Positions 2,453 through 61,648 of a stretch of 64,000 nt of DNA are shown piece after piece. The DNA is from Tetradesmus obliquus (lineage: Eukaryota; Chlorophyta; Chlorophyceae; Sphaeropleales; Scenedesmaceae), in the NCBI GenBank assembly GCA_030272155.1, contig CP126197.1, positions 4,146,001 through 4,210,000 of the forward strand, in the 5' to 3' direction. Below the pieces are notes generated by a model, which made no database searches, was not told where the DNA came from, and saw only the letters and a list, made by a program, of their open reading frames with translations. How positions within the stretch are numbered: position 1 is the stretch's first letter; every line of letters starts with the position of its first letter. The translations under genes and the position numbers were made by a program.

Positions 2453-3767
2453 GGAGGTGGAGGGAAGCCCGCACCGCCGCCACCTGTAACAGGCATAAAA
2501 CAGATCAAGCAGCACCAACCGCAAGTCAGGCAAAAGACAAGCAGTGGAAGGCGGTGCCAGTCTTGCTTCTGCAGATGCATACACCACACGCACAACTCGC
2601 ACAACACCAATCTTGCAGTCAAAATCTGGTCAAACACGACAAAACAACAGTGCACCGCACCTGCTGCAGGCCTGCCTGGCTCCTCAGGATGCAGCAGGTC
2701 ATAGCCTGTGCTGCCAAAGGCATCTGGCCGTGTGGCAAGGTAGCCCCAGTCAATGGCCCCGCCACTTGAGCACTTCAAACAACCTAAAGCGGAAGTCAAA
2801 CTTTGGTCAAACGTAACAACGTAACAGTGCATCGCACCTGCTGCTGGCCTACCTGGCTCCTCAGGATAATCCTGCAGCAGGTCATAGCCTGTGCTGCCAA
2901 AGGCATCTGGCCGTGTGGCCAGGTAGCCCCAGTCAATGGCCCCGCCACGCACTTGAGCACTTCAAACAACCTAAAGCGGCAGTCAAACTTCGGTCAAACG
3001 TAACAACGTAACAGTGCAGCGCACCTGCTGCAGGCCTGCCTGGCTCCTCAGGGTCATCCTGCAGCAGGTCATAGCCTGTGCTGCCAAAGGCATCAGGCCG
3101 TGTGGCAAGGTAGCCCCAATCAATGGCGCCGCCTCGCACTTCGCCAGCACTGGCACCGACAGGGGCGCGGCCGCCGGGCCCCCCTTGGCCCCCCTCGCCC
3201 CTAGGGCGGTAGCGCAGGTTCTGCAGGTCCGACATTACAGGTGAACAGGAAACAAGTCAGGAGGTTGGCAGACGCGAGCTTCAAGCTGTTACAAATCAAA
3301 ACATATGTGGCGGACACGATATATGCACATATCAACACCCCCAAGCTCCCAGCCCCACCTGCGAGAGCAGGTCAGTGCTGTCAACCTGGTCCACCAGCTT
3401 CATGCTCTGACATCAATTCTACAAAGCATTTTTAAAGCAGCCAAACCAACAAGGGGGCGCAGGCGCCGTGGGGCGCAGGCGCCGGTGGGCGCAGGCGCCG
3501 AGGGCGATGTTGCTGTGCCTCGCAGTAGCAACATGCCACTGCTGCTGCCAATGCTGATGATAACTACCCACCTGAGGGTCCAGGTCGGTGCCGTCAGCCT
3601 GGTCCACCAGCTTCATGGAGCAGCCGATCTTGGGGCCCCTGTCATCATGACCAACCTCCACCACCTGGCAGCAGCAGCAGCAGCAGCAATAACAGTTCAG
3701 GGGTCCACCAGCTTCATGGAGCAGCCAATATTGGGGCCCCTGTTGTCATGACCAACTTCCACCACCT

Positions 3768-3818
<51 letters not shown>

Positions 3819-4213
3819 CAAGATGCATCACTAGTGCCAGTGATCTAGCCGTCACCCACTCAGGCAGACAGTCCAATGCCCTGGCAGGAATGCATGCAAA
3901 CATCAATCCACGCAAACATTCAAACATTCAAGCCATTCATCACAACAACTCCCCGGCCGTACCCTGAACCCCAACTGCTGCCCCAGCTCCACCACTTTGC
4001 GCATGTGCACACAACATAATCCTTTCCACCCATCCATCTGCTAGTAACTAGTTGTCTCATGCAGGTTATGATTTAAAAAAATTCATCTGATATTGCGCAC
4101 CTTGACCCACACCTCCTGCCCCAGCTCCACCACCTCCCCAATAGCCTTCTTGCGCTCAGCCTCGCCGTCCTCAGCAGAAAACTCGAGGTAGTTGGCCACC
4201 TGGAACGACAGCA

Positions 4214-4254
<41 letters not shown>

Positions 4255-4628
4255 TGAGCAGCAGTGAAGCAAGTTCAGCCTTGCCGTCCTCAGCACTGAA
4301 CTCAAGGTAGTTGGCCACCTGAATTGTCAGCATAAGAGCAGCAGCAGCAGCAGCAGCAGGGTGGGACGAAGGCGGGTCACAAGCTGATCCTCAGCGCTGA
4401 ACTTAAGGTAGTTGGCCACCTGGGGCGATAGCATGAACGCAGCAGCAACAGCAGCAACAGCAGCAGCAGCAGCAGGGTGAAATGCGGGCTGCACGCTGAT
4501 CCTCAGCGCTGAACTCCAGGTAGTTGGCCACCCGCGGGTGGCAGTGGCAGCGGCAGCAGCAGCAGTCTCACAACCTGTTCCTCAGCAATGAATTCAGAAA
4601 TATGGCCACCTGGCAGGAGACGTGCCGT

Positions 4629-4671
<43 letters not shown>

Positions 4672-4776
4672 GCAGCGGCGGCGGCGGCAGCAGCAGCAGC
4701 AGCAGCAGCAGCAGTCTCGCAACCTGCTCCTCAGCAATGAAGTCAGATAGTTGGCCACCTGGCGGGAGACAGAAAT

Positions 4777-4809
<33 letters not shown>

Positions 4810-8788: not shown

Positions 8789-11230
8789 ATGCTAGCCACA
8801 CAGCTATGCAGCAGGACAGTGTCTGTGTCCAGGAGGTGCTTGCAGCAGCTGCTGTTCAGCAGCCTACGCTGCCTGTGCCCATCAGCTGCAGCAGCACGTC
8901 AGTTATGCACCAGCCGCAGCAGCTGCCGGGCAACAGGCACAGCAGGTCAGCAGTCCATAGATGACCAGGTAGCAGCAGCAGACACCAGTGTGCTGGATAC
9001 AGTGAAGCTACTAGAGGCTGGCATAGGGCCACTTAGCCAGCATCCTATGGTGAGCAGCAGCAGGCTTTCAGAGCATTCTTAGCAATATAACCAAAGCAGA
9101 TGCAGCTTGCTGTGGCGTATGAGCAGTGGCAAGCATGGCTGCGAAGCTTGTGGCAGGCTGCAGGACAGCAACAGGCATGAATGACAGCAATGATCAATAG
9201 CTCAGGTCAGCAAGCCCTGCTGGCAAGGCTCACACACATGCCATATCAAGTACACAGCCAAAGTAAATCTTGAGAACGCAATTGACCTCTGCATCTGGTC
9301 CAGTCAGTTGCGCAGCAGCAGCAGCAGTGAACACCCCGAATTCTCACCAGCATGCAGGACATGCATGCATCCATGCGCGTGGGCACACTGCATGAGCCTG
9401 ATTGCGAGTGATTGCTCAACCATTGCAGGTGCCCCCTCCGCAGCCGCGCGTGGTGGTAATCAGCGGGCCTAGTGGTGTGGGCAAGGACGCAGTCATCAAG
9501 CGCTTGCAGGAACTGCGGCCAGACCTCTACTTTGTCGTCACCGCAACATCCAGGTGCGGCGCTACCAAGCTGGTACAATCTTGTAGACACGCTGTTTGTG
9601 TGCATAGCAGCTGCTCAGTAGCTGTCGCACTGGATATAGAATGCAGCTTCAGCAGCAGCAGCCAGGCGTTCAGCCAACACAGTCAGTTTGGAAAGGCCAT
9701 AGTAGCAGGCTTCACACAAGGCTGCTTTGTGGGCTGTGGGTCTGGCACCAGTCCTGTCTAACCAAATCTAAACAGTTGAGCATGTGTTACATAACATGTT
9801 ATGTAACATGCAGGGCCATGCGGCCGGGCGAGGTGGAGGGCAAGGACTACTTCTTTGTCAGCAAGGCCACATTTGAATCCTGGATTGCCTCTGGTCAGCT
9901 GCTGGAGCATGCGCTGGTGTATGGCGAGTACAAGGGCATCCCGCGGCAGCAAGTCGACGCAGCGCTGAGCAAAGGCAGCGACGTGGTGCTGCGCATAGAC
10001 GTGCAGGTGCGCTGCTGACAAAGCTGCTGCTGCATGCTGCTTGTTCAGAGCAAGTTGTCGTATGGTGGGGCACTTGCACTCGCATAGGCAGGGGATGCTG
10101 GTTGTAGTGCTTTTGTGGAAGCCTGTGGGCAATGGTTTTGGGGCTGTTGTGCGCACGATGGCGCTGTGTGCTGGAGCATGCGCTGGTGTATGGCGAGTAC
10201 AAGGGGATCCCGCGGCAGCAAGTGGACGCAGCGCTGAGCAAGGGCAGCGACGTGGTGCTGCGCATAGACATGCAGGTGCGGGTGTGGGTATTAGTGCTGT
10301 TGCAGACTGTGCTGCAGGAAGGGCTACAAGGCGCAGTGCTTGAAAGCGTTGGCTATGCTGCGATGCATGGCGATTATGTGTTATGCGGCTGAGTTGACTG
10401 GCGGTTAACCAGACGCCTGTCCATGCTTTTTGCCATATCTGCTGTACACTGTTCGCAACTTGCCGCAATGCGTGCTGCTGTCTGCCTTGGCTGCAGGGCG
10501 CTGACACAGTGCGGCGGCTGATGCCTGGCGTGGTGAGCGGTTCGTTGTGGCTGAAAGGGCCCTGCCATGCATCTTGCTAACCGGCAGCTATATGTTCATT
10601 AAACTCATCGCATGCTCGGCGCACTGCCTGTTGCGGCTGCAGGGCGCGGACACGGTGCGGCGGCTGATGCCTGGCGTGGTGAGCGTGTTCATTGTGGCTG
10701 AGAGCGAGGCGCAGCTGGTGGCACGCCTGGTCAGCAGGAAGACGGAGCCGCTGGACAAGATGGTCACGCGCGTGAAGACCGCGCGGTGAGCAGCAGCAGC
10801 TGCTTTTGCGTCTGATTCGTGGTTGTGGCCATTGTGCAGTGTGCACACTTGTACATCCTCAGGACGGAATTGCGTCTCAGGCACGAACGCAGCGTGCCAT
10901 CAACAGCACCCAATTTTACCTCATTTCACACAGCCGTATGCATCATCAGCGCTGCTCTGCATGCTGACGATGGGCTGGCTAGTGACTTCTGGGCTGTGCA
11001 GCACCATGTTTCTGCAAATGCGGCAGATGTCCGTGCCCTGGTCTTGCGTTGTCCAATCCTGCAACGCTGTGCTGCTGCTGCTGCTGCCCTGCTGCAGGGA
11101 TGAGACGCAGCACATACACAAGTTTGACTACGTGGTGGTCAACAGGGAGGGCCAGCTGGACGAGTGCGTGGCGCAGTTGGCTGCCATCATTGACGCAGAG
11201 AAGCTGCGCACCAAGCAGCAGCAGGCATGA
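8789..11230 (+). CDS. GMK: guanylate kinase, probably organelle-targeted
   Basis: Five exons (8789-9049, 9429-9553, 9814-10006, 10643-10785, 11098-11230) join in frame to about 284 residues. Guanylate kinase phosphorylates GMP to GDP with ATP. The P-loop is GPSGVGKD, the variant typical of plant organellar (VIRESCENT-2-like) enzymes. The GMP-binding part follows: [18 protein letters not shown], then [18 protein letters not shown] with the conserved E and Y residues. The lid region contains [21 protein letters not shown], and the C-terminal part has [10 protein letters not shown]. Residues 1-60 are rich in Arg, Ser, Cys and Leu with no acids, like a chloroplast or mitochondrial presequence; which organelle is not decided. 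Introns 3 and the 3' flank contain partial copies of exons 3, 4 and 5. Exon 4 is used from 10643 because the earlier copy at 10499 breaks off after MPGV. Confidence 0.92.
10155..10540 (+). repeat. partial copies of guanylate kinase exons 3 and 4 within intron 3
   Basis: Bases 10168-10276 repeat the 3' half of exon 3 ([18 protein letters not shown] onward) with its donor, almost unchanged. Bases 10490-10535 repeat the acceptor and first dozen codons of exon 4 ([12 protein letters not shown]). The full exon 4 follows at 10643. Confidence 0.9.
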
Positions 11231-12266
11231 GACCTGCGGCAGCTGCCAGCCGCAGTGCGCCTGTAGACAGCTACTGTACAGTATGTTGACACATCACGCT
11301 GCTCTTGCACCAGCACATCCACAAGTTTGCATCGTGGTTTTCAACGCACTTGTTGGCCCTAGCGAAGGCCAGCTGGACGAGCGCGTGGCGCAGCTGGCCG
11401 CAATTATTGACGCAGAGAAGCTGCGTACCAAGCAGCAGCAGGCGTGAGACCTGCTTCAGCTGTGGCTGCAGATAGCCGCTGTACAGTGTTTTGTAACATC
11501 ACGCTAGTGCTGCTCTTGTTTGCGCTGCAGCACATTCTGGAAGATGAGTATGTGGTGCTTAATGCGCTAGGGAGGGCAGCGGGACGCCTGCGTGGCGCAG
11601 ATGGCTGCATGTATTGACGCAGAGAAGCTGCGCACCAAGAAGCACTGGCTGTCATGGAAACCTGCAGCAACTGCGGCCGTCCAGTGAAAAGTACATGCAA
11701 AACTTCGCTGCGTATGCTGTGCACCAGCGCGTGCTGGCCCTCGACACTGTGATCGGCACTTCTCTGCTCTTTCTGCGGTGCCCCAGAAATAGCATTGGAA
11801 AATCAAACTACGGTTTACTTGCAGGCACCCTGCCAAGCCGCTGGTCGAAGCGCCACAAGCTATAGTGCACTGGTCGTAATGCTTTCCAAATAAATCATAT
11901 GCTAGTACAGCACCAACACAACTTCGTACAGATGTACGCACACGTACCTCAGTTACAAGCACACGTGTTGCACAACCACCTGCAGGACGGTGGAGCTGCA
12001 ACCCTCTCTAGTTACAAGTTACAAGTTCTACAGCATCCCCGGCTTATTCCGGCGTGCGTAAATTAAGGAAGAGGGTTAGTGAGCCGAGACTCACGTCACT
12101 GTAATGTCGTGACATAACCCCCTACCATGAGCGCATTCGTGGCAGGATTCGTGGCAGGATGTGCAACCCTCTCTAATTCTTTGCTGCTGTCGGAAGCACA
12201 CCAACTAGTGCTGCTGCTGCTGCTGCTGGCTACTGCTGCAGCAACTATTGCTGTTGCTGGCTGCTG
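11231..12266. repeat. guanylate kinase 3' flank with two further copies of the last exon
   Basis: After the stop at 11230, about 11320-11447 repeats the last exon ([27 protein letters not shown] plus stop) and about 11535-11650 holds a third, frameshifted copy. A TGTAA motif (11492-11496), the usual green-algal polyadenylation signal, lies between the second and third copies. From 11700 to 12266 I see no gene; this is probably the 3' flank of the converging LRR gene, with TGTAA on the complementary strand near 12023-12012. Confidence 0.7.
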
Positions 12267-13617: not shown

Positions 13618-13651
<34 letters not shown>

Positions 13652-14907: not shown

Positions 14908-17900
14908 TCACCAGTGGTGTGTCTGGCTGGGCAGTGGGTCCAGCAGCACCCTCAAGTCCCTCTCCTGCTCCAGCACCGCATTGAAGTACAGCTTGGCTCC
15001 CATGTAGCCCTTTGACCGGATGGCAGCCAGCAGCTGCTCATATGTGCCGCGCGCCTGGTCTGCCGGGTTGACTTGCGTCATCACCTTGCGCTTCTCATCG
15101 TACAGCAGCAGCGGCATGCCGTGCGGCTGCAAATGTTGCAAAGAAGAACAGTTTGCAGGAAAATGGCAGGCAGGAAGGCGATGCACACGGGATTAGCTAA
15201 AGCGGTGGAGGGGCAGGCTAGCCAACAACTGCAGCAGCAGATACACAGGTCCCTGCAAGCAGCTTGCAGCAGCAGCCCATATCTCCGTAGCACCAACAGC
15301 ACGACCATCAAAGGCCAGGGGCGCTTTCATCAAACCGCTGCCGCAATAGTCCAGCAACACCTCCTTGCACTGAATGCAGCACTAAGCTGCAAAGTTCTTT
15401 GCATGCAGCACTAAGCTGCACAGTTCCTGCATGCAGCAATTAGCTGCCCAGTTCTGGGGCCACTTACCCCGCCCATGGGTGCCTGGATCTTCACTATGAA
15501 CTTCTTGCTGGCATCTGCTGGCCGCTGCACAGCCGGCGCGTTGCCGTCCTTCCACTGCGGCCCCTTCTTCATAGCCTTTGTCATGTGCTTGACCGGCTTG
15601 TTGAAAGGCATCTGCAGGCACAGCAGTTAGTCCAAAACAGGGTGCGTTGCAAATCCGCCAGTGCACATATCTGACAACGGAACTGTGCACAGTGAGTGTT
15701 GATGTGTGTGTATTTCACTGTAGACGCTTTGGGCGGGCAGCGTGCAGCAGGCGGCAGCATACATGGTGCCAAGCCTGCACACAGACAGCTCTGCAGCAAC
15801 ACCACGCCGCCCACTGCCACTGGCGGCTGCTGCTGGTGCTGCTGATGCTGCAGCGGCTCCTGCTGCTGCTGCAGGAGTGCACACCAATTGTTGTGTTGGC
15901 TGCCAGCAGGCTCCACTTGCGTGTGAGCCCAAGTCACACACAATCTGCTGAACTACCCGCGAACTAACTTCTGAATGTTTGCAGATACTCGGCCACCGCT
16001 TGGCGAGCCGCTCACCACCATCCCAAATGCAGACTCCCCAGTCTGCTCAACCAGCTTGATGACCACTGAAGGGCTGCTGCTGCTGCTGCTTCCCGCCGCT
16101 GCTGCGCTGCTGCTTGCTGATGTGCCCGCCGCTGCTGCAGCCGCGGCACACTCTGCTTTGTGCCGCTTCCAGTCCTGCAAGTGCAGCAGGCAATGGACGG
16201 ACATATCTGTGGTACAGCAGCACGTGTACAAAAGATACTGGGCAGCGCACCACCTGCTGGACACACATATGCAGCCTATGCTGCGGTGCTTGGCGCTGCA
16301 TGACACATACACTTCCATCAGCATCGTAGAGCATCACAATGCAGCAGCGTATACATTCCGGTGCCCAGCGCTCTCAGGTGTGCAGACAGCTGCTACAGCG
16401 TTTGCTTGTGCGGTTGGGCTGAGGACACATGCAGCTTTCCTGCAAGCGCACCTGCACCTGGCAGTCCTTGCTGCAGTAGGCTACTCCCTTGCAGCGCGAG
16501 CAGGACATGGCCCCCTCCGCACCACACACCTGCGGCAGCGGTAGTCCCAATGTGTTAGTTACACTGCAGGCAACAAACCACTGGGTTACAGGTGAAGGAT
16601 GCCAACAACGCCATCTACGATATCTACTACAACCAAAACAGCCAAAGCTGCAGTGATGTGTGAATCAAATGATGTGAGGGCCTCACCAATCAATCACGGA
16701 AACAGGGAGTTCAACGTTGGACTCTCACCTTGCAGGACTTAGGCAGCTTCACGCCTGCCTTCAGCGGCTGAATGGGCAGCAGGCAGCTGACCCTAAACAT
16801 GCTGCCTGCAGCACCCCAAGCAGCTTGCTGCGCTGCCACATACTGCGGGCTCAGCACCGCTGCAGGATGCAAAGGCAGCAGAAGCAGACACAGCAGCAGG
16901 TTAGGAAGGCCATGTGCAACAGCAGATGAGGCAGACACATGGGCTGAGAGGGTGTGCGTCCACAGTGCATACCCACGCAACCCGCGGGCTCTTGCCCGGC
17001 ACACGTGTGCCGCTTGACGCTAGATTCACAAGCCAGGTTGTGCTAGACGTTGACATGTGTGGTTCCAGACTATTTGTCAGGCCCAGCTGTGTTGGCCTGC
17101 AGCAGTGCTGCTGCCAGCTGTAGCTTCCCTGGCTGCAGCTTCGGCACCACCATACCCTCATCATGATTATCTAAGGCTGCATGCTGTTGCGTGCCCAGCT
17201 GTGTTGGCCTGCAGCAGTGCTGCCGCCAGCTTCAGCTCCCCTGGCTGCAGCTTCTGCACCACCATAACTTATCTAAGGTTGCATACTGTCGCAGGCCTAC
17301 CTGTGTTGGCCTGTAGCGCGCTGCCGCCAGCTTCAGTTTCTGCACCACCGTAACCTCATCATGTTCAGCTAAGGTTGCATGCTGTTCCGTGCCCACCTGT
17401 GTTGGCCTGCAGCAGTGCTGCCGCCAGCTTCAGCTCCCCTGGCTGCACCTGAGCCACCATAACCTCGCCAGCAGGCCGCAGCGCAGCCTCAGCAGCAGCA
17501 AACGCCTGCACCAAGGGCCCAGCAGGCAGAAGCATGGCATCCCTGGTGGGCCATGGCATCGGTAAACCCAGCTGCTGGTCGGCACAGGCCTGTCACCACA
17601 CACCATGACAAAGCTGCATGCAACATTCTGTGCAGCCAGCCTCTCCAGCAGGCCGCAGTACAGCCTCGGCAGCGGCAAACGCCTGTAAAACATGCACATC
17701 AAGCGCAAGCAGACAACTGCATGTGGGTGGTTACAACAGCTGGTCTGCCAAGCTTTGCTGGCACATAGTGCTGCAACGCTGCAACATGCTGTATCAACAA
17801 CACACAAATTGACCATTGCTCTTGCCATGCAGGTCCTGAACAGGTTATACAACGGAAACTATGTATGTACAGCTGCTGGTCTTACCTGCGGCACAGGCTG

Positions 17901-35679: not shown

Positions 35680-35713
<34 letters not shown>

Positions 35714-40919: not shown

Positions 40920-40950
<31 letters not shown>

Positions 40951-42169
40951 GCAGCACAAAGGTCAAATTTGGTGTTATTGTGAGGTCGAGCGTGGTTGAC
41001 AGCTGCTGCTCTTGCGCTGCGCTGCTGTCTTGCACTGTGTAGCAGGCGAGCTCCGGAGCTGACAAAGAGAGCTGATGGTTGAATCACAAGAGTGCTCTGT
41101 CAGCCGCACCTGGTTGTGCTTGCCGTTGTATGACACCATGTCGTACAGGCTGAAGCCGTCGTGCGCGGTCACGAAGTTGATGGAGTGGAAGGGCCGCCTG
41201 TCGTGGTTGTGGTACAGGTCAGCGCTGCCCGACATGCGCGTGGCAAACGCGCCCTTCATGCCTGCAGCGATGAATCAAAAACATATCAAACAGATTGGGT
41301 TTTGACAGTGGTGAGGTGTTGTGGCATCACAGCAGGTGTCAGCGCTGCACAACATGCTCGTGGCAAACGCGCCCTTCATGCCTGCGGTGGTGATGCACAG
41401 TAGGGGGTGAGGTGATGAGGCATGCAGTGCTGGTGGTGGCAATACGGTGGTTGGGTCGAAGGGGCGGCAGCTTACATGCTGGATAGTCAACAGGTGTGGT
41501 CCATATGGTGGGACAAGTGCAGTCGTGGCAAATCCTGCCGCTGAGTGCTGTCCAGAGCCAGCAGCTGAAACCACCAAACGAACACATCTACTTGACATTT
41601 GGACACCACCAGAAATCCTTTGCTCTCACAAGATGGTTGCTGTAACGTGTGGTTGCTCTAGCAAATTTGGTGCCAGGACCCACATGTGATTATCCTCCCT
41701 TTCTTTTCGCACTACCCTCCCTCTAACAGCAGCACCCACCTGCGTCTCCCTTGATGAAGCGGCGCACGTCGTCCCTGAACTTGCCGTTCCACTCCGCCCA
41801 CACGTCCCAGTTGGGGAAGGTGCCCACCTGGCGGCAGCAGCGGCAGCAGCAGCAGCAGCGCACCAGTAAGCACTCGGGCTTGTCTGCAGACACCAGCTGG
41901 CGTGTTTGACATGGATGCAGCCAGCCATGCGCAACTGCGATCCTGCGGTGATCAACGGCAGCTGCAGAAGATTGCCCGAAGGGTTTGGAGCCCGTTAAAA
42001 GCTATGAACCTGAAAACAAATCTGTTTGAGGAGAACATCTCACACAACACCCACCTGGTACATGCCCAGGTCCCAGGGCTCAGCGATGAGGTGCACCTTG
42101 CTCAGGATGGGGTGCTTGGCGATGTCGCGGATCAGCGGAGGCGCAGTCATGGGCTGGCCCTTGGAGTCT

Positions 42170-42201
<32 letters not shown>

Positions 42202-45200: not shown

Positions 45201-47780
45201 TAACCGCTGCATAATAATGTTACACTGCCTGAGCTCTAACAGTCTGTGTGTTGTAACACCCAGCCGCACCTTCTCAGCCACGCCCAGGTATGTGCCGCGC
45301 TTGTTCTGCCCCAGCCCTGAGCTCTTGCTGGCTGTGAAGCAGCGCACAGTCATCTCGTAGATGATCAGGTCCCTCAGCTTGTGCTGCGGCCGCTCGTAGT
45401 CATAGCCCCAGTCAAACTTTGAGTCAAAGTCAAACGTGCCCCACCACATGCTGCCCTTCTGCAGGGTTGACCAAGGTTTGACCAGACAGCAGCAGAAGCG
45501 CCAGGGCAGCTAGTGAGTGTATGTTACCCTGTATTACTGTGCTGCTTGCTTCAGCATATAGTTGTACTTGTGACAAGACTGCTGCATGCAAGCCGCCAGC
45601 AAGCAATGTGGTGGCCACATAACAGCGCAGCTAAGAGCAAGAATCCCCGCTCCTGTTGCCCAGGCCCGACGGCCTTGTGTCTTGTATCGCTGTTGTACTG
45701 TGCTGTAGCAGCCTTCTGTGTGTGGCTTCAACCCCGGCTGTGGTGTTGCTGCTGCTGTTGCCTGTCAAGCAACTTGCCTGACTCTAGCCGTGTGCTGCTG
45801 CTACTGCTGTTGCTGCTGCCGCTGCTGCGGCCAGCGTTCACCTCGTTCTTGAACTCCTCCCGCTCCTCGCGCTGCGCCCAGTTCCTGCGCCCAGCCACCA
45901 GCGGCGCGCGCGGGTCCAACAGCAGCCGCGACTTGTCCCACCTGCAGCAGCAGCAGTCAGCTCGTCATGGGTTCCGCTGAGTCTCTTGAGTCCATAAAGG
46001 GCCTGAAGAATTATTTGGCCTCCAGTCGCTTCAAAAAGATGCCCCGAAGCAATACTGCCACCATGGGGATTGAAGGCAGGACCATTCACTGGTGTCGCCC
46101 TAAGAGCACGGCGGGCTCTGCTGCACAGCCACAGCTCGCAGCTGAGGGTGTTCGATTCAATCCCAACTACTGTTGCCATTGCCGTTGCAGCCGCCTGCAC
46201 ATCTATTACATGTAACAAGTCAGCCAGCCAGCCGGCCAGCTAGGTCGCACCTGTAGCCCGTCTCCCAGCCGCCGTTGCCGCTGACGCGCAGCGCATAGTA
46301 CACGTTGCTGCTGGGCAGGCCCTCCACTGCCACATGCCACACATCGCCTGCAGGGCAGCAGCAGCAGCAGCAGCAGCAGCAACTGTGACATGATCATTTG
46401 GTAGGGGCAACCTGACTCAACTTGCACATGCCATGTGTCACGTGCATTGATAACAGCACACCAGCAGCCAATGCTGATCCTGTGCCTTGCCAAGGTCTGC
46501 TAGTCCTTGGCCTGCTGCCAACTGACGCAGGCAGTGCTGCAGCACCAGCAGCAGCAGCACTGGCATCCGCCCTGTGCACAACAAATGCCATGCGGCATGC
46601 ACAGTGTCGTCTGCCCTGCTTGCAGGTGCATGCACCAGCGCTATGCAGCTGCAGCTTCTGTAAAACATACTGCCTCTAAGCAGCACCCTTACTCACCCTG
46701 CCATGCAGCTACTGCCCCCTACCCGACTTTGTTTATGAATAAGCCGCTGCGGACAAGCTTGCACAGCTTGGTTGCACAGCACACCACAACATAAAACTCA
46801 ACAAGCAACGCTGCCACCCACCTGACTTGTTCATAGCGATCTCCTGCCTGCTGCCGTCATTTGGGTTGTGCAATACCAGCGACATGGCAGTGGCTGCGTG
46901 AGAGAACACCGCAAAGTTGACAGCATTGCCCTGCTTGCTGGGACCAAGAGGCTCCGCCTGGCCTGCAGCAGTAGCAAGTGAGAGATGTTGTTCAGTGTGC
47001 ATGGAGTGTGGATCTGAAAGACCAGCAATGAGCAATTGCAATGGCATTGCCCTGCTTGCTGGGACCAAGAGGCTCCGCCTGGCCTGCAGCAGCAACAAGC
47101 AGGTCAACTTGTTAAGTGTACATGAAGTTTGAATCTTTAAGATCATCATTGAGGCTATGCAACGGCATTGCCCTGCTTGCTGGGCTTAGGAGCTCCGGCC
47201 TGCAGCAGCACAGACGTTCAGAGTTAGTTCAGCATTCAAGAGGCGCTTGGCTGAGCACATGCGGCCAGCAGCTTGAGGAAAGTATAGTTTGAGGTGTGTC
47301 TAAATGTTTCTGCCGCACTGTGTGCTGTGCACAGCTGGGTCTGTTGATACAGCAAGCTGAGGGAGTGCTGCACAAGCATTACAGCTGCTGCAGATACATC
47401 AGAATTGGATGCATGGTATCCTTGCGCAGAATCTGGAGGACATACATACATAACATTTTACATGTGCAGGCTCATGTAAATCCAGCCTATTCTTGAAACT
47501 GCTTGTGCCTCTGCATAGAGCAGCAACTTCACACCTCACTTGCATGGCACTGAATGCACAGAGAGGCATGCAAGTGAATGCACAGCGACACAGTCCTTGG
47601 GTGCTTTGCTGTGGGTGAGTTGTTGCAAGAGCAACCTAGCAACAGGCCATTGTGGTGCATGCTGTGCACATGCGTGTGCCCCTCTGCCTGCCGCACGCGC
47701 CTAGCAGCAGACTGCATGAGCCCACCTTTGCTGATCTTGGTATAACTGCTGGCACTGCTCATTACTGCTGTGCTGTGCAT
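38813..47780 (-). CDS. ISA3: isoamylase-type starch debranching enzyme, ISA3 class
   Basis: Fifteen exons (47780-47726, 46962-46822, 46347-46251, 45941-45842, 45458-45270, 44953-44736, 44031-43939, 43246-43050, 42167-42055, 41827-41740, 41261-41110, 40911-40746, 40285-40105, 39645-39513, 38980-38813) join in phase to about 696 residues. It cleaves alpha-1,6 branches of glucans in the plastid; ISA3 acts mainly in starch breakdown. A CBM48-like N-terminal part ([20 protein letters not shown]) precedes the GH13 barrel: DVVYNHT (278-284), FRFD with nucleophile D356, AEPWD with acid E393 and AHDGF with D465. ISA3-like blocks are [36 protein letters not shown] and TWHEDNWDN. The C-terminal beta-domain ends in ITKKI. 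The first exon is uncertain: its frame opens to about 47963 without an ATG, so more transit peptide may lie upstream. Most introns hold partial exon copies. Confidence 0.93.
39035..39232 (-). repeat. partial upstream copies of the last ISA3 exon
   Basis: About 39223-39145 repeats the acceptor and [15 protein letters not shown] codons; about 39105-39055 repeats the [12 protein letters not shown] part. The intact exon is 38980-38813. Confidence 0.85.
39400..39910 (-). repeat. partial copies around ISA3 exon 14
   Basis: The intact exon is 39645-39513. Two upstream copies (about 39910-39860 and 39788-39715) keep the acceptor and the [15 protein letters not shown] codons with decay (TGACACGAGG in the older one). 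One downstream copy (about 39440-39407) keeps [12 protein letters not shown] plus a donor. Confidence 0.88.
40505..40582 (-). repeat. partial downstream copy of ISA3 exon 12
   Basis: It matches LDMRYKQ, then [15 protein letters not shown] and a GTGAGT donor, with loss of the MRNYL codons. The intact exon is 40911-40746. Confidence 0.85.
41335..41390 (-). repeat. partial upstream copy of ISA3 exon 11
   Basis: It contains the acceptor and [10 protein letters not shown], then CSADT codons. The intact exon is 41261-41110. Confidence 0.85.
42285..42970 (-). repeat. copies of ISA3 exon 9 start and exon 8 end in intron 8
   Basis: Bases 42322-42285 copy the acceptor and [10 protein letters not shown] start of exon 9 (intact 42167-42055). 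Three copies of the 3' end of exon 8 ([17 protein letters not shown] region), at about 42960-42895, 42775-42660 and 42445-42385, lie downstream of the intact exon 8 (43246-43050). Two of them keep a GTGAG-type donor after CTGCAGAG. Confidence 0.85.
43340..43650 (-). repeat. three upstream copies of the ISA3 exon 8 start
   Basis: The acceptor plus [14 protein letters not shown] codons recur at about 43401-43345, 43525-43475 and 43645-43598 before the intact exon at 43246. The flanking intron text (TTGGCGGCATTGTGCAAGAT and following) is repeated too, with a period of about 120-145 bp. Confidence 0.9.
44240..44740 (-). repeat. 246-bp tandem repeat of ISA3 exon 6 (3' part plus intron)
   Basis: Two additional near-identical copies of the [20 protein letters not shown]...EMVRT segment, its donor and about 130 bp of intron follow the intact exon 6 (44953-44736), offset by 246 bp each. 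The farther copy has a few substitutions (SRCNMPG). Confidence 0.93.
44985..45092 (-). repeat. partial upstream copy of ISA3 exon 6
   Basis: It has the acceptor and [20 protein letters not shown], then [11 protein letters not shown] codons, nearly identical to 44953-44850, then diverges. Confidence 0.92.
47030..47210 (-). repeat. two upstream copies of the ISA3 exon 2 start
   Basis: The acceptor and GPSKQGNAV codons recur at about 47088-47040 and 47207-47150, upstream of the intact exon 2 (46962-46822). The spacing is about 120 bp. Confidence 0.88.
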
Positions 47781-51316: not shown

Positions 51317-52331
51317 GTTGTGTAGCAGCTGGGTTCAGTGCAGTTGGGGGAACTATTCAACAAGATGCAGCGTGCCCCTGACACAGTTGCATCACACTGA
51401 CAAGTGTGACATACATACATGCCATGGCAGTTTTGCTGTGTGGCATGTGATGTGCTTGTCTCTTCACTGAGCAAACAGTGATGGGGCTTCAAAAAATGTG
51501 ACGAGCTCTGTGCAGCAAGTGGTGATGGGGCTCAGCCCTTGATGAGCTTCATATTGCTGATTGTTGGGTCTTGAGGGATAAACAACTGCCATTATAATAC
51601 CTGCTAGTGATGGGGCTTGATGTCAACGGCTTGCCCAGTGCCTTGCTTGCTGTTGACAGAGAGTTTGCATGTTGCATGTAAGCATTCTGATCACATGCTG
51701 TGCTCCTTGTGCAGCAGTGGCTGCCAGCAACCACCTGGTGAAAAGTGTGTCGGGCGATTGGGGTTTTATCGTTGATGAGGTTAACAAGAACTTGTTTTTC
51801 CATGGAGTTCTATGCCTCCATGAAGCAACTGAGTGTCCCACAAAGTAGGGCAGGGACTAGGTGTGGGTGCACGTTACAGTGCCGCACCAGGCAGAAGATT
51901 GTATGGTGCTTTGCAGCTGCCATGGCTGCAAGACGTTTCGTTCAGCTGCTTCATTGCTATGGTGGGCAGTACCAATGTGTAAAGAGTTGCAGGGGACATC
52001 GTTCAGCTGCTTCATTGCTATGGTGGGCAGTACCAATGTGTAAAGAGTTGCAGGGGACACCCTTTGCATTATACCAACACCCATGCGGGGTGCGTCACGC
52101 TGGCGTCAAGCTGTTGTTACTTAAAACCCTAGTTACGCGTTTCACACCCTGCATGCCGCACATTCAGCAGTGAGGTCTCATGCACTTCGTTTCTGCTACA
52201 TTCCACTGCCTGGATATGCATGCGCATGTGTGCTCACGTGTTGATTCAAACAGCCACAGCAGCAGTTGCACAACCCAGACATGACCAGCAGCCAAGGCTA
52301 GCTCACTGGGGCTAGCAAGCCAGCTGTAGTG
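51317..52331. other. intergenic region upstream of the ARFRP1-like gene
   Basis: 1 kb without a gene. It contains a 61-bp tandem duplication at 51940-52061 and several GGTGATGGGGCTnnA-like short repeats at 51478-51620. Confidence 0.55.
51940..52061. repeat. 61-bp direct tandem duplication
   Basis: Two nearly identical copies starting GTTCAGCTGCTTCATTGC at 51940 and 52001, differing only at the end, lie about 270 bp upstream of the ARFRP1-like start. Confidence 0.95.
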
Positions 52332-54149: not shown

Positions 54150-56442
54150 ATGTTGCGGAGAACTGCTTATTCGCTCCTGCCACACTGTGCTCGAACGTTC
54201 TGCAGTGGTACACGAAAAGCAGATGTTTGTATAGTAGGAGCTGGTCACAATGGGCTTGTCGCAGCCCTGCTGCTGGCGAGACAGGGACTCAAGGTAAGCA
54301 CGTTCTACTGTAGGGCTTTCAACTGATAGCAGCACCAGCAGTGCACAGGGCGTGGTGCCAAGCTGGATCTTTGCACGTTCAGCCTGCTCATCAGTTTCAA
54401 TGCTGCAAGCTGCAGTAGCAGTGCTCGATCTGCCAGGCTTGTGCAGCTGTGGAAAGTTGTGTCCTGCATGCTGCAAGCACCTGTTCAGCAGCGCCTCTTG
54501 GCCTGCAGAAACAGGAAACACGCACGCACACAACGTCCTGCGCTGCTTGCAGGTGGAAGTATTTGAGGAGAAGAATGTTGTTGGAGGTGCTTGCAGGACA
54601 GAGCATCCCTTCCCCAAAGTGCCAGGCTTGGGCCATAGCACAGGTGACAGAGCCAGCAGCAGCTGCAGCAGAGCAGCACCAGCACAAGCACGAGCATAGG
54701 TGCATGCATGACATTTAGCCTGCGCGCCCTTCTTGCTGAGCATGATTGAGCAGCTGTCAAGGCGCGACTGCAGCAGCAAGCATGGCACGAGCCAAGGCAT
54801 GTTTCCAATGCATGCTGTGAGCCTTGCAGATGCTGCAAGCAAACCCGGCAACACATTTCCCGCCTCAACAATGCAGATGGCTGCATAACCCTCTGCACCT
54901 GTGGTTCAAGCGTGTTGAAACTCCGCTGCCCGGCTTGCTGATGATGATGGTGCTTGCAGGAGCGTACTTGCTGGGTGTGATGCCGCCAGAGCTGCTGCAG
55001 GTGGGCTAGGCAGCGTACTGCTGTGAACTTCAGCAGACTGCTTGACATTTTCATCTGTAAACCTAACAGCTGAGACTGCTGAGACACACTGTGCATCATG
55101 CCGCCACGCTTGGTCCAAAGAGGTGGCAACAGGCTCCGCCAGCGCTGCACTCTAATGTTCCGCTTGCTCGCACAAGTTTGCTTGCACAAGTTTGCTTGCG
55201 GCAGCAGAGGGTGCAGTGCGCGGTGTGCATGTTGACTGACGGTGCACGTGTGAATCTTGTTGATATGTTTCCCTAACACATAAGCAAGTGGTGGTGGTGC
55301 TGCTGCTGCTGCTGCTGCTGCTGCAGGTGCTGGGCCTGAAGCTGCCCCTCAAACGCAGAGACCCCCACTACTTCCTGCCAACTACAGGTGCGCTGCTGCA
55401 CAGCAGCAGATCCATCTGCAGCAGCGCCAGCAGCCTGCCTGCGGACAGATGCTCTGAGATGTTGGAAGCAACATGCCGGCTGCCCGCATGGCCCACTGGC
55501 TGGAGGTGCATACATGTCCGCCTGGTGTGAAGTTGAGTCCTCAGCACGTACCACGAATCTTCAGCAACCATCACTTGACACCAGCAAAGCTGGTCATTTC
55601 CCACCTGCTTGCTGCCACCACTGCCCTGCGCTGCCGCTGCGGCTGCTGTCGCCACTTGTGCGCTGCAGGCAGCCGCTACCTGCTGTTTGGCTCAGATGAG
55701 GCCTCCATGCACCAGCAGTTTGTGGACTTCTTTTCAGAGGACGACTGGCAGGCACACAAGGCGCTGCAGGTGCTCTACGTTTGGTGCACTGTGAACTCGT
55801 CAACAGGCAGCGCAAGGGTGTGCTGCTGCAAATGCCACACACTCATCACCGTGGCACGAGTAACGTGCTGGTCCGCTGGCTTAAGTGTGCTTGTCAGGTG
55901 CATGATTGCACGTCGTCTGCTCTGCTGCTGCACGACAGGCTGAGATGGACGCACTGCTAGAAGATGTTGTTCCCACCTGGCTGGCTGAGCCGCTGTCACT
56001 CGAGGAAGTCATCAACTTTGCAATGGTCTCCTCAGCCACTGCTCAGCCACAGCAATACTGCAACCCTCCTGCTGCTCTGCTGATGCTGTCAACAGGCCGA
56101 GATGGACGCGCTGCGTGAGGATGTTGCTCCCACCTGGCTCGCTGAGCCGCTGTCGCTCGAGGAGACAGCGGAGCGCTTTGTGCGGCCAGGCCTGCGCAAC
56201 ACCTTCGTGGACCTGTGCCGGCAGCCTGTCTCGCATTACTTGGACCGGTTTGGCTTCCGCAGCGACTTGCTGCGGGCCATGTATGCTGTGACTGACGGCT
56301 TCAGCGGGCTGAATGGCAGCTGGGACACACCAGGGACTGGCATGAACTTCCTGGTGCACAACATGGTGAGTCCGCTGCTAAAAGTGCTTGATTCACTGAT
56401 ATCTGAAACACGCGGTGCACGGTTGTGTTGATGCGTGCCTGC

Positions 56443-56474
<32 letters not shown>

Positions 56475-57080
56475 GTGTTAACTTTGCTTGTTGCTTTGTA
56501 CGTTGCTGGAGACCTTCTGCGGGCCATGTATGGTGTGACTGACGGCTTCAGCGGGCTCAATGGCAGCTGGGACACACCAGGGACCGGCATGAACTTCCTG
56601 GTGCACAACATGGTGAGCTGGGATAGGATGCTGCGTTGTGCTTGCTGTATAAAAATCCCAAAGTTGCGCTGGGCTGGGCAAGCACGGGCATAAATGTGGT
56701 GTGCATGCCTGGGTGTACACTGTCTACGCCCTTGCCTGTGCTGATGCCGCTTTTGGTGCCGATGAAGACAAGCTGTTGGCCTAAAGCTGGATGCGCAGCC
56801 CTGGGTGCACCTGGGCAGGCGGCAGCATTGATGTGCCTTTGCATTTTGTGAGAGGATAGTTACATGTGGGTCTTGGCACCATCAGGACCACCAGGACCAT
56901 TAGGAGAAAAGGAGAGTGAGCATTGCATTGCAAGTTGCTGTGAGGGCTGCAAACTAGCAGCAGCTGCTGCTGCTTGGCTGGGCTGCAGTGCCGGCCGCCC
57001 AAGTTTGAGCACCTGGATGTTGATGGGTGGACGCATGGGCATGACATTACATTGCAAGCGTACACTAAAACTATGTGATT

Positions 57081-57112
<32 letters not shown>

Positions 57113-60100
57113 GCAGTGCCGGCTGCCTAACTCTGGCGGCACCTGGATGGTTGTGGAGGGAGGCATGGGGGCAGTCACGCAGCAGCTGGCTGCAGCAGCC
57201 AGGCAGGCGGGCGCCCACATCCACACAGGCGCAGCGGTGCAGCAGATAGAGGTGCAGGACGGCCGCGCGACAGGTGCGGCTGCTGGTTTGCAGCCGTCTG
57301 CCGTGATGCCTAGCATTGAACTGCTGCGTGCAAGGTAGTACTACTGCGCACACTGCAACAGGCAGGGGATGCACAATGGTGTTTGCAGACTGAAGCTCAC
57401 CATCAACAAGCTTCCACAGATTATCTCTCAGCAGCAACAGGTGCCTGTAGCTAACACATGTGCATGGCACACCACGGCAGTTTGCTGCATGCCCGCAAAC
57501 TTTCAACAGCTGACAACGATCGTGCTGCGTGCAATGCCGCAGGCGTGGTGCTGGGCAATGGCAGCCGCGTGGATGCGCGCTGCGTGGTGGTCAACGCTGA
57601 CCCGTTCAGGCTGCGCACACTGGCAGGCAAGGAGCACTTCAGGTGAAGCAGCTGGGTGAAGCATGCTCCTGCGCGCTGTTGCACATCATGTGTGGTGCCA
57701 CTCTGCAAGCCAAGATTCATGCATCCAGCTGCGGCTTGCAAGGATGCAGCGCCTTTTACTGCAGCGCATTTCAGCGCAGCCATCATGTCAAACTCTTGCT
57801 GGTCTGCTGCTCACGCTTGAGTACCAGGACGCGCCTGCATGTGCCCAACACACCGTTGATATGAACAACTGCGGCGTTCTGACTAGCCCTGCTGCTGCTG
57901 CTGCCGCTGCCTGCACTGCCTCCTGCCAGTGATGACTTCAACACCTTCTTGGACTCACGCAAGAAGGACGGCACCACCATGAAGGTGAACGGGCATCAGG
58001 CGTTGTGTTGCTTCGTAACTATAGGCCTCCGCTTTGGCTACTGCATGCAAACGCCATTACTCTGTAGTTGGCTGCACCGTGAGGAGCAACACACGTGCTC
58101 ACTGCTTGAGTGTGCCAGCAGCTTCTTGTGTAGCTCCATGCCATTGGCATCACATCAGCTGCTGCTGCTGCTGCTGCTGCTGCTGACTCGGCACTGATAT
58201 CTGCCACCAGCACCAATGCCGCTGCTGCTATGCCACCAGCTGAACAGCTGCCTCTCTTTCACACACTGTCCGCTATCGCAACCCTGTAGTGTGGCGTGTA
58301 TCACGCGGCTCGTCAACTCACAACGGCAGCACACTGCTGCGCCTGGTGCTGCTGCTGCTGCTGCCGCCTTAGGTCAACCTAGCGCTCAAGGGCCTGCCTC
58401 GTTTCAGGTGCCTGCCTGAGGCGCGGGGCCAGCATCGCACCACCACGCATCTGCTGCCTGACGAGCACCACGTGATGCAGTCACTGACACAAGGCTTTGC
58501 AGACGTGCAGGCGGGGCGGCTCCCAGACTTCCCAACCATAGAGTGGTGAGTGGCTGGGCAGTGTGATGAAAGAGACACACTTGAGGCGCTGTGCTGATGC
58601 TCCAGCTGCTGTCAATGGTGGAATCGGCAGATCAACGGCACAGTCATCATCACCACAACCGCTCAGGTCAGCTTGTCGACCCTGTTGCTACTGTTTGTGC
58701 TGCGTCCGCAGGTACTTCCACACTACAAACGACCCATCAGTGCAGGTGGGCTCCAGCCTGCACGGCTGCTGGCTGCATTATTGGCTTGCTTTCAATTTGT
58801 TTTAATGCCTTGTTGCACTTCACTTTATCGTGCATCATGGAAGCCGCCCATACCAGGCCAGGCTCATGCGCATCGTCTGCTTGCGGCTGGCATCGCTGCC
58901 TTACATCTGCTGCTGCCGCCACTGGCATGTCTGAGCACTGCTGCTGCTGCTGCTGCTGCTGCCTGCTGGCGCTTGCAGGACAAGGCTGGCCACCACAGCA
59001 GCGCGCTGTTTGTGCAGTGGGTGCCGTACCAGCTGGCTGGCAGCAGCTGGGAGGCAGAGGAGGAGCGGTACACGCAGCACCTGCTGGACATAGTGGACAC
59101 CTTCGCACCAGGTGCGTGTACGCAGGATTTGGCTGCTTTGGTTGCTGCTTTGGGGGTGTATCTGCGGCTGCTGATAGGTGCGCGCTGATATTGCAACATG
59201 CGCATTGCTCGCGTGTTCTTGCCACCAGCCCACTGTCACACTCCAGAGCGCCCTGCACTGCTCTTTGCTGCTGCTGCTGCTGCTGCTGGTGGTGCCGCTG
59301 CCGCAGGCACGTCTGACCTGGTGGTTGACCGCATGACGTTGACGCCGCCCAAGATCGAGTCCTACTTTGGCATCAGCAGGGGCCACATCCACCACATAGA
59401 CAACGCATTTGGCTTCGACCAGCGCTTCCCCTACCGCACACCCATCCAGGTAAGAAGCGCGCGATGGTGTGTATCACAGAACCGTGTTTCTTTGCTACAC
59501 GGCAGCTTACTGCACTGCTGAAAAAGGGATTAGCATGTGCACCGCCTTATGTGCCCTGTACTCAGCAGCGTGTGTTGCTGCGGAAGCAACAAGCCAGCAA
59601 CAGGCATAGATTGAGTCCTACTTTGGCATCAGCAGGGGCCACATCCACCACATAGACAACGCCTTTGGGTTTGACCAGCGCTTCCCCTACCGCACACCCA
59701 TCCAGGTGAGCCGTGCGCGTGCGCATGCACAGAGCTTGGATGTTCTGACACATGCAATTAAGGAGTGGGTGTAGTATTCCAGACACAAGTGACCTGGCAA
59801 GGCAGCTGCACCGTTGGCTATGCGCTGCATTGGCTGTGTGACATACTCTTGCAACTGCATGTTGGGTTTAGCGTCTTTTTGCTTTGGCATCAGCAGGGGC
59901 CACATCCACCACATAGACAATGCCTATGGCTTCGACCGCGCTTCCCCTACCGCACACCCATTCAGGTGAGCCGTGCGCGTGAGCATGCACAGAGCTTGGA
60001 TGTTCTGCCGCATGCATTCAAGGAGTGGGTGGAGTCTTCCAGACACGAAGAGATTTGGCAAGGCAGGTACACTGCTGGCTATGCGCTGCATTGGCTGTGT

Positions 60101-60647
60101 GCCGTACTCTTGCAACCTGCATGTTGGGTTCGGCGTCACTGTGATTTGGCATCAGCAGAGGCCAAATCCACCACATAGACAATGCATTTGGCTTTGACCA
60201 GCGCTTCCCCTACCGCATACCCATAAAGGTGAGGCAGTCAGCATTTGCATACACACAACCAGCTAGCTAGCAGGCCTGCAAGCAGTTCACTGCATGCATT
60301 GAAGAGTGGGTGCCGACCTCCTGGCACATGCGGTACGGCGAGGCAGACACCGCACACCCATCCAGGTGGGCTTGCACGTGCGCATGCACATGCACACAAC
60401 TAGGCTGTTGATTGCATGCGTCAAGGGTAGGTGCCGTCGTCTCAACACATGCAAGCGTTCAAGGCAGGTGCACCATCGCCTATGCTCTGCATTGGCCGTG
60501 TGTCGTACTATTGCAGACTGCATGTGTGGCATGATCTGGCATGGTTCGGGCCTGATTTCACTGGCCTAGACGGAAATGCAGCCTGTGCATTTGTCATCTT
60601 CCACATGTGCATTTGTCAACCTCTTTGGTGCCTTCCCAATTGGGGGC

Positions 60648-60684
<37 letters not shown>

Positions 60685-60820
60685 GCTGCCGCTGCAGGGA
60701 CTGTACTCGGCCTCTGCAGGCACGCACCCGGGCGGCTCTGTGGCTGGCTGTGCGGGGCACAACTCTGCAGGCTGTGTGGTGAAGGACATGGGCCTGACAC
60801 CCTGGTGGCCCACAGCATGA
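54150..60820 (+). CDS. PYROXD2: FAD-dependent oxidoreductase, PYROXD2-like
   Basis: Fourteen exons (54150-54293, 54553-54643, 54960-55000, 55327-55387, 55669-55769, 56096-56365, 57117-57273, 57543-57642, 57930-57984, 58373-58545, 58712-58745, 58979-59111, 59307-59449, 60698-60820) close in phase to about 541 residues. The N-terminus has an Arg-containing leader (MLRRTAYSLLPHCARTFCSG), fitting the mitochondrial location of animal PYROXD2, then the dinucleotide-binding GAGHNGLVAALLLARQG and VFEEKNVVGGAC. Further family blocks: WMVVEGGMGAVTQQLA, VNADPF, LFVQWVPYQLAG, DRMTLTPPKIESYFGISRGH and GLYSASAGTHPGGSVAGCAG at the end. The family is related to carotenoid isomerases (CRTISO/phytoene desaturase-like), but sequence and length fit PYROXD2 better; its substrate is unknown. 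Introns contain partial copies of exons 6 and 13, and the 3' flank a copy of the exon 14 end. Confidence 0.9.
55935..56620 (+). repeat. partial copies on both sides of PYROXD2-like exon 6
   Basis: The intact exon is 56096-56365. Upstream, 55940-56010 repeats the acceptor and AEMDALLEDVVPTWLAEPLS codons. Downstream, 56515-56611 repeats LLRAMYGVTDGFSGLNGSWD through LVHNM and a GTGAGC donor. Confidence 0.92.
59600..60370 (+). repeat. three to four downstream copies of PYROXD2-like exon 13
   Basis: The 3' part of exon 13 (ESYFGISRGHIHHIDNAFGF through YRTPIQ and donor) recurs at about 59609-59705, 59885-59965 and 60148-60230, with a scrap of HTPIQ near 60350. The second and third also share about 180 bp of following intron. 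The copies decay with distance: the second loses codons around FDRASP, the third ends RIPIK. Confidence 0.92.
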
Positions 60821-61648
60821 AGCAGCCCAGTTTAGCTGTGGCTTGGGTTTTTTTGTAACAAGGCGATTATGTTTTACCGTGGCTGCTAGTGATTGGCAGT
60901 ACTGCGTGAAGGACATGGGGCTGATGCCCTGGTGGCCCACAGCATGAGGCAGCGCGGTGATGCTATGGCTTGATTTTTGCAGATCAAAGAATGGATCAAA
61001 TATGTAATTTGATTATGTTCAAGAACCATTGTGGTGGGAAGAATCTGGCGGGAAACTATCCCACGCTCCGACTTGGGTGCTGACATGGCTCTTTACGTGG
61101 TGCAGGCTGAGCACATACTGATGAGTGTGCCAGCCGCATATGCGGCAGTACATGCATGTACTTGCTGCAAACGAGGGCAATGTGCTTAATGATCAGCCTA
61201 GCTAGCAACCATGTACAATCCAGCCAACAAACCAAGCTGCGCAGCAGATGCGCCAGTCCTGACCAATGCGCAGTTTGCAGCGCGGAGTAGCAGTGACTGC
61301 AGGCTGGTCAGTCATCCATAACAACTGGCTACAAGGTACACGTCGTTCTGGACAGTGCTCAGTCCCAATGTGACTACTGGACAAAGGTTAGCTTGCCATG
61401 CATATCATGAAGCACTCACACACAGCTCAACAGTACTGCAAAATGTGTGCCGTACACAGTGCCAACCACAGCTGGCAACAAGTTTGAGCTGAACAGCAGC
61501 AGCTTCTGCTGCTGCACAACAGTTTATGTAGTACAAGAAGCCACATGCAGAGCTTTGAGCACGCTGCCACTGCTCATTCAAAGCACAACAGGGCCACCTT
61601 TTATGGTATGTGCCATGCATGTGCACAGTCGGCTAGCACCCTTGCGAC
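60821..61648. other. 3' flank of the PYROXD2-like gene and downstream region
   Basis: A further copy of the end of exon 14 (VKDMGLMPWWPTA plus stop) lies at about 60907-60948. The rest, to 61648, may include 3' exons of the converging membrane-protein gene; no domain seen. Confidence 0.55.
60854..60858 (+). terminator. TGTAA polyadenylation signal candidate
   Basis: TGTAA after a T-run, 34 bases downstream of the PYROXD2-like stop, matches the usual chlorophyte polyadenylation motif. It precedes the copied exon 14 end, so that copy may lie outside the main transcript. Confidence 0.5.

Follow-up and report, generated by a model that had tools for sequence, protein, structure and literature searches.

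Partial exon copies arranged around exon edges in Tetradesmus obliquus introns and their possible origin by tandem duplication and recombination

The 64,000-nucleotide stretch of Tetradesmus obliquus DNA analyzed here (the window; part of a genome of 104.66 Mb in 17 contigs) carries an S1/RS gene, a guanylate kinase gene, a MYND-type gene, MSH4, ISA3 and a PYROXD2-like oxidoreductase gene, and partial copies of exons, hereafter echoes, lie next to their source exons in these genes. By spliced protein alignment we delimited 14 exons for ISA3 (protein P0001), 16 for MSH4 (P0121) and 14 for the PYROXD2-like gene (P0241, 87%), and these 44 exons in three genes served as the gold set. The protein joined from the ISA3 exons matches the T. 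obliquus isoamylase P0001 at 99%, which places the DNA in this species or a very close strain. ISA3 exon numbers refer to aligned exons only, the first of which begins at residue 102 of P0001, with an N-terminal exon upstream left out. The MYND-type gene is present as a 5-kb tandem duplication with copies at 14906-19260 and 19971-24217, a pair that can serve as a clock.

Comparison of the window with itself by BLAST yielded 70 rows, comprising 57 local direct repeats at distances of 61-779 bp, 11 distant direct matches, ten of which stem from the 5-kb gene duplication, and 2 inverted matches. Counted as non-redundant local pairs at E<=1e-5, the window contains 50 repeats, and they fall in all six genes for which the initial annotation had described such copies. 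A predicted splice edge is touched by 39 of the 50 pairs, as compared with 21.5±4.0 for a shifted annotation, a count that is partly circular since three of these genes had served to train the exon predictor; the earlier estimate of well over thirty copies was thus a fair one. By the same predictor, and with the same partial circularity, 17 of 19 testable pairs in the window show the geometry described below. The identity of the pairs ranges from 73 to 97% (5th-95th percentile), in line with the wide range of ages that had been suggested, and the middle half of the spacings between duplicated stretches lies at 120-256 bp.

A head-to-tail duplication of a segment that crosses an exon edge is expected to place copies of the 3′ part of an exon downstream and copies of the 5′ part upstream of it. 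This arrangement was observed for 26 of 29 strict echoes, which were found on 15 of the 44 protein-aligned exons after removal of matches that had E>1e-8, were highly repetitive in triplets, overlapped another exon or had an exon part of <30 bp. The exceptions are two edgeless echoes and one match to a CTG tract (MSH4 exon 9), which breaks the rule. Moreover, one of the 26 copies the end of PYROXD2-like exon 14 at the stop codon, where there is no splice edge, which shows that the duplication as such can do without a splice site. The notion that each copy keeps one exon-intron boundary therefore describes most, but not all, of the echoes.

The same pattern was observed outside the window. For this purpose, we sampled 20 stretches of 10 kb that together represent all 17 contigs (random loci). 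Repeats within 1 kb were direct in 177 cases and inverted in 10, and 16 of the 20 stretches contained at least one direct repeat. Two satellite-like stretches, L019 and L021, which account for 26 of the direct repeats and one of the inverted ones, were removed before pairs were counted and before the clustering of differences was tested. They harbor long tandem arrays with units of ~275 bp (L019) and ~297 bp (L021), probably satellites or repeated genes. The remaining 18 stretches comprise 93 non-redundant pairs (0.52 per kb), distributed over 14 of them. Exons were predicted with a two-strand model trained only on the three aligned genes (intron setting -8), which recovered held-out exons exactly in 34 of 44 cases at setting -7 and in 33 of 44 at -8.5, and which may label some echoes as exons; a self-trained predictor, which drifted into long merged genes, and a first single-strand version were both abandoned. 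When the annotation was shifted 500 times, 37.8±5.0 pairs were expected to touch a predicted splice edge, while 64 of the 93 did so (0/500 shifts reached this number). Conversely, pairs within exons (5 vs. 11.5±3.5 expected) and non-exonic pairs (24 vs. 43.7±5.3) were depleted. The geometry held in 25 of 27 testable cases, as compared with ~61% for the shifted annotation.

Five further 10-kb stretches, used as a replicate, yielded 19 direct and no inverted pairs, all confined to two of the five. Here, 16 of the 19 pairs lie at predicted splice edges (null 8.5±2.2, 0/500), and the geometry was obeyed in 7 of 8 cases, or in 32 of 35 for random loci and replicate together, where chance gives ~61%. 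Thus, with local repeats in 16 of the 23 stretches used in total after removal of the two satellite-like ones, the expectation that echoes extend beyond this contig was borne out. Their distribution is uneven: no pairs were present in 7 of the 23 stretches, including gene-containing ones, and the variance is 4.8 times the mean. The empty stretches L010, L030 and L031 have many predicted exons, while 10-12 pairs occur in each of five others and 16 in L033. The pooled 112 pairs in 230 kb correspond to ~51,000 genome-wide, a rough extrapolation given the patchy spread. Taken together, the phenomenon is real and widespread but patchy, and unlikely to be an artefact.

We next consider the anatomy of the echoes. 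The description of the echoes as partial exon copies captures what mainly stays visible, namely the exon part; several, however, are tandem units of intron plus exon. The ISA3 exon 5 array repeats such an exon-plus-intron unit of 246 bp, the S1 gene contains a 187-bp tandem array, and the echo unit in MYND copy 1 combines ~70 bp of exonic with 39 bp of intronic sequence. In aggregate, the intron parts are related as well. Echoes without an exon edge were excluded from the intron-flank tests, and among the remaining 26 a local, indel-tolerant test gave P<0.05 for 11; when nine rows whose spacer holds another echo were omitted, 8 of 17 remained significant (Fisher 2e-8). The MYND pair shows both states, in that copy 1 contains three echoes of one exon, while the paralogue (exon 22424-22535) contains none. 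Echoes 2 and 3 of this gene have CT at the position of the former donor GT. As a separate observation, a 61-bp sequence is present as two perfect tandem copies at 51938-52059 of the window, upstream of a small-GTPase-like reading frame and outside the echo genes; this duplication looks very recent.

The exon and intron parts of the units differ in their divergence (p). Among pairs with an exon p<0.1, less than 30% of the intron part that would be expected was covered by the BLAST match in 11 of 16 pairs from the random loci, 7 of 8 from the window and 3 of 3 from the replicate; retention was measured only on pairs obeying the geometry. Under neutral simulation with three indel settings, such low retention occurs in 3-10% of cases at exon p<0.05 and in 9-36% at 0.05-0.1, so that the pooled 21 of 27 pairs exceed even the simulated maximum of 36% (P=1e-5). 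In the low-retention pairs of the random loci, similarity stops after <=23 bp of intron, against an expected 50-539 bp. Six fully retained units were found in random loci, with a mean exon p of 0.069 and intron p of 0.151, i.e. a ratio of 0.46, as compared with 0.65-0.66 for a simulated free echo where both parts are alignable. The MYND paralogues, with a third-position p of 0.234 and an aligned intron p of 0.277, indicate that introns are not unusually fast.

Comparisons between echoes point in the same direction. Neither copy codes in such a comparison, and in all seven, drawn from three arrays and not independent of each other, the exon part is closer than the intron part; the respective exon/intron p values are 0.060/0.13, 0.095/0.456 and 0.096/0.43 for PYROXD2-like exon 13, 0.084/0.51 for ISA3 exon 5, and ~0.11/0.24, 0.16/0.34 and 0.11/0.46 for MYND. 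In the PYROXD2-like exon 13 array, the exon groups with echo 1 by its exon part (p 0.036), while echo 1 groups with echo 2 by its intron part (0.13 vs. 0.48), and three informative sites back three different groupings.

Differences between exon and echo were also sorted by codon position. In the aligned genes they are distributed 29:37:79, near the 1:1:2 predicted for an exon restricted to silent changes and an echo open to all changes, and the random loci gave 25:21:80 and the replicate 4:12:21. Third positions differ by ~14-17% between exon and echo, and intron flanks are often unrecognisable. Of 12 splice-edge 3′ echoes, 10 retain the donor GT, and AG was read in 5 of 13 5′ echoes, a reading made without gap correction. 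For the MSH4 exon-10 echo the protein models of T. obliquus disagree: P0121 skips it, whereas P0123 reads through and uses the echo acceptor (window 34691-35010), which adds 40 residues to MSH4. This extra segment is likely an annotation error, or else a new protein segment, and P0123 illustrates how echoes can end up in the proteins that gene predictors produce.

We propose, tentatively and with somewhat less than even confidence, that echoes are short tandem duplications across exon edges that are hidden by splicing and whose exon part is renewed by recombination. According to this model, short stretches would be duplicated in tandem. Where the duplicated stretch crosses an exon edge, the intact exon would retain its own splice site, and the truncated exon copy, together with a spare donor or acceptor, would lie inside the intron and be spliced out, which would render the change tolerable. 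The unneeded echo would then decay, whereby the spare donor can be lost. Lastly, recombination between exon and echo, either gene conversion or an unequal exchange that makes arrays, would renew the exon part and leave the intron part to drift. The first two steps are suggested by the anatomy of the units and by one paralogue pair with and without echoes, and the splicing-out by the protein alignments.

Another, though unlikely, explanation would be plain neutral tandem duplication with asymmetric decay and no recombination, in which selection holds the exon and the likeness of exon and echo fades more slowly than that of intron and intron. The 29:37:79 distribution in the gold set fits the ratio expected for it, the six fully retained units are the kind of case that it allows, and the excess of edge over non-exonic pairs in the random loci (64:24 against 37.8:43.7) could partly reflect longer visibility. 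In contrast, the frequent loss of the intron part at low exon divergence (21 of 27 pairs vs. 3-36% simulated) argues against it, as do the 0.46 ratio even of the six retained units and the greater closeness of exon parts in the seven non-independent echo comparisons. Plain decay is hence not enough to explain the similarity of the exon parts. This similarity would likewise be obtained if an exon fragment with its splice site were copied into the adjacent intron without the flank, perhaps templated by RNA or via break repair, and arrays were amplified later, since such copies would also be more alike than their flanks. The abrupt end of similarity within 23 bp of the intron in the low-retention pairs, the echoes without detectable intron homology and the discordance at the last echo of the arrays, which fits an exon-only first copy amplified afterwards, are consistent with this possibility. 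We consider it unlikely, though still a serious rival, as the echo units show intron homology in aggregate, the MYND unit includes 39 bp of intron, the echo of PYROXD2-like exon 14 sits at a stop codon, and the strict geometry would have no evident reason.

Alternatively, the echoes might be functional and maintained by purifying selection, be it as alternative exons, as alternative splice sites or as splicing decoys. The deficit of differences at the first two codon positions of the random loci (25:21:80), the retention of GT in 10 of 12 splice-edge 3′ echoes and the use of the MSH4 echo acceptor in the gene model of one strain (P0123) would agree with this idea, and it is possible that a subset of echoes are real alternative exons. 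As a general explanation, we regard it as quite improbable: coding constraint alone is insufficient where third positions differ by just ~14-17% and the intron flanks are often unrecognisable, AG was read in just 5 of 13 5′ echoes (gaps uncorrected), PYROXD2-like exon 13 echo 2 has a one-base deletion, MYND echoes 2 and 3 have lost the donor, and the other half of the exon is missing. That the copies are an artefact of assembly or of haplotypes is hardly credible, as they differ from one another and have different spacers, repeats were found on many contigs, and the MSH4 exon-10 echo also occurs in a protein model of another T. obliquus assembly (P0123, OEZ85_013171). Among these explanations, gene conversion or unequal exchange that renews the exon part best accounts for the divergence pattern and is favoured but unproven.

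Several observations weigh against duplication followed by exon renewal. In the random loci, codon positions 1 and 2 carry fewer differences than would be predicted for a free echo, and conversion offers no explanation for this shortage. When the intron test was anchored, only 5 of 26 echoes reached P<0.05 (Fisher 6e-4); the null of the local test is not anchored at acceptors and may flatter 5′ echoes, and 3′ echoes alone gave 3 of 8 (Fisher 0.002). Several echoes, namely of PYROXD2-like exon 6 and ISA3 exon 13, combine an exon identity of 95-98% with no intron homology detected by the local test, which is the outcome that copying limited to the exon would give. MYND echoes 2 and 3 retain three bases that are shared with the paralogue and missing in the copy-1 exon; as they keep the ancestral state, renewal is incomplete there. 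In some of the low-retention pairs, the exon part comprises 14-18 bases, or a spacing >350 bp inflates the expected intron part, which weakens them. Of the seven non-independent echo comparisons, five include the final echo of an array, and the remaining two are not significant by themselves (P=0.07 and 0.09). Finally, mosaic clustering of differences, which would point to conversion tracts, was not significant in the gold exon parts (Fisher P=0.10, Stouffer 0.054), and the clustering detected in 43 random-locus cores (P=1e-4) is not restricted to exons and includes repeated arrays.

Two further candidates were set aside. For a mobile element or introner, related copies at unlinked loci would be expected. 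However, all four echoes that were probed matched their own locus only in the whole genome at E<=0.001, in a search that skips very common words, which upholds the earlier statement that the copies are not a mobile element. The creation of new introns is not needed either, since the echoes sit within introns bounded by protein-aligned exons.

Beyond the single echo, it is possible, if doubtful, that exons serve as permanent templates from which the adjacent introns are rewritten and lengthened time and again, whereby duplication seeds an echo and recombination renews it, and that this widespread record helps to explain long introns. In the aligned genes, introns with a strict echo (n=14, one of which holds merely the CTG-tract match) have a median length of 474 bp, as compared with 259 bp for those without (n=27; P=2e-6). 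Table 1 of PMC5966456 gives a mean intron length of 462 bp for T. obliquus and 230-302 bp for four other green algae. If the proposal is correct, echoes would provide a concrete cause of intron growth, and a single genome would preserve an extensive natural record of short tandem duplications and of recombination between exons and introns. As each echo is paired with its own constrained source, the rates of duplication, conversion and splice-site decay would be measurable.

The features are compiled in Table 1.

Table 1. Echoes, their source exons and repeat arrays in the window (3′ and 5′ denote the part of the exon that is copied).
Feature	Position	Strand	Remarks
ISA3 exon 5, source exon	44736..44953	-	Spliced alignment of P0001
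ISA3 exon 5, 3′ echo 1	44482..44596	-	107/107 exon bases identical; 246-bp unit, intron part p=0.086
ISA3 exon 5, 3′ echo 2	44236..44350	-	Exon part p=0.084; following intron p ~0.5
ISA3 exon 5, 5′ echo	44998..45092	-	5 differences in 92 exon bases, all synonymous
ISA3 exon 1 (46822-46963), two 5′ echoes	47044..47208	-	
ISA3 exon 7, source exon	43050..43246	-	Most echoed among the aligned exons
ISA3 exon 7, three 5′ echoes	43348-43414, 43469-43526, 43593-43668	-	
ISA3 exon 7, four 3′ echoes	42899-42964, 42653-42772, 42566-42620, 42379-42441	-	Last one edgeless
ISA3 exon 8 (42055-42167), 5′ echo	42267..42327	-	
ISA3 exon 10 (41110-41261), 5′ echo	41338..41393	-	
ISA3 exon 11 (40746-40911), 3′ echo	40507..40578	-	
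ISA3 exon 13 (39513-39645), two 5′ echoes	39726-39793, 39864-39923	-	
ISA3 exon 13, 3′ echo	39401..39451	-	
ISA3 exon 14 (38816-38980), echoes	39153-39223, 39047-39104	-	First with acceptor, second edgeless
MSH4 exon 10 (34811-35010), 5′ echo and flank	34629..34732	+	42/42 exon bases identical; present in strain model P0123
MSH4 exon 13 (35976-36113), 3′ echo	36276..36359	+	
PYROXD2-like exon 6 (56096-56365), 5′ echo	55917..56006	+	
PYROXD2-like exon 6, 3′ echo	56511..56617	+	
PYROXD2-like exon 7 (57117-57273), 5′ echo	56957..57039	+	
PYROXD2-like exon 13, source exon	59307..59449	+	Spliced protein alignment
PYROXD2-like exon 13, 3′ echo 1	59608..59719	+	Exon part p=0.036; intron part p=0.48 vs. 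the exon's own intron
PYROXD2-like exon 13, 3′ echo 2	59882..59979	+	Exon part with one-base deletion
PYROXD2-like exon 13, 3′ echo 3	60145..60233	+	
PYROXD2-like exon 14 (60698-60817), echo of its end and 34 bp of downstream flank	60906..60978	+	No splice edge
Guanylate kinase exon, 3′ echo	10169..10280	+	Source 9900-10011, 96% identical, 269 bp apart; exon read from sequence, without protein alignment
Guanylate kinase exon, 5′ echo	10489..10557	+	Source copy 10635-10704; read from sequence
Guanylate kinase repeat array	11108..11674	+	~203-217 bp apart
MYND-gene exon, three 3′ echoes	17035..17357	-	Source 17397-17505, inferred from paralogue
S1/RS gene, 187-bp tandem array	2617..3141	-	
S1/RS gene, diverged CAG-rich repeat array	4156..4808	-	69-83% identity

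Elsewhere in the window, inverted gene-family copies at 2-1611 and 12273-13861 are 71% identical over 1.6 kb, and a CTG-rich stretch of ~55 bp at 15823-15882 has many matches on other contigs, mostly 84-92% identical.

Nearby tandem duplicates can stay alike by gene conversion while their flanks diverge, a process known as concerted evolution. In the case proposed here, such exchange would take place between a working exon and the truncated copies of that same exon in introns. As for the initial event, PMC3443670 and PMC4974935 present tandem genomic duplication as an established route of intron gain. Reminiscent of the cases they describe (ATP2A1 of Hellsten et al.; the potato RdRp gene, PMC4974935), an intragenic duplication would be tolerated here because the spliceosome would remove the extra sequence; in contrast to them, echoes create no new intron, but lengthen an existing one by a partial exon copy with a redundant splice site. 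Internal gene duplications in eukaryotes (Gao and Lynch 2009, as cited in PMC3443670 and PMC4974935) likewise involve exon-intron structure within genes, whereas here partial exons are left in introns and the exon parts are more alike than the intron parts. A source of short direct tandem duplications is described in PMC8355091, according to which they can come from fill-in by Pol alpha-primase/CST at breaks in human and mouse cells; that text is silent on the similarity of exon parts. Introners (PMC9860276) share with echoes the genome-wide occurrence of repetitive intron sequence, but form families over many genes, while the four probed echoes match their own locus only. Among the matches listed in the open-licence literature, judged by titles and abstract openings, we found no account of partial intronic exon copies as a genome-wide pattern in an alga, which is weak evidence of absence. 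In comparison with these systems, the kind of duplication event is known, and the new elements are the density of the echoes, their exon-edge geometry on the scale of a genome and the preferential survival of the exon part.

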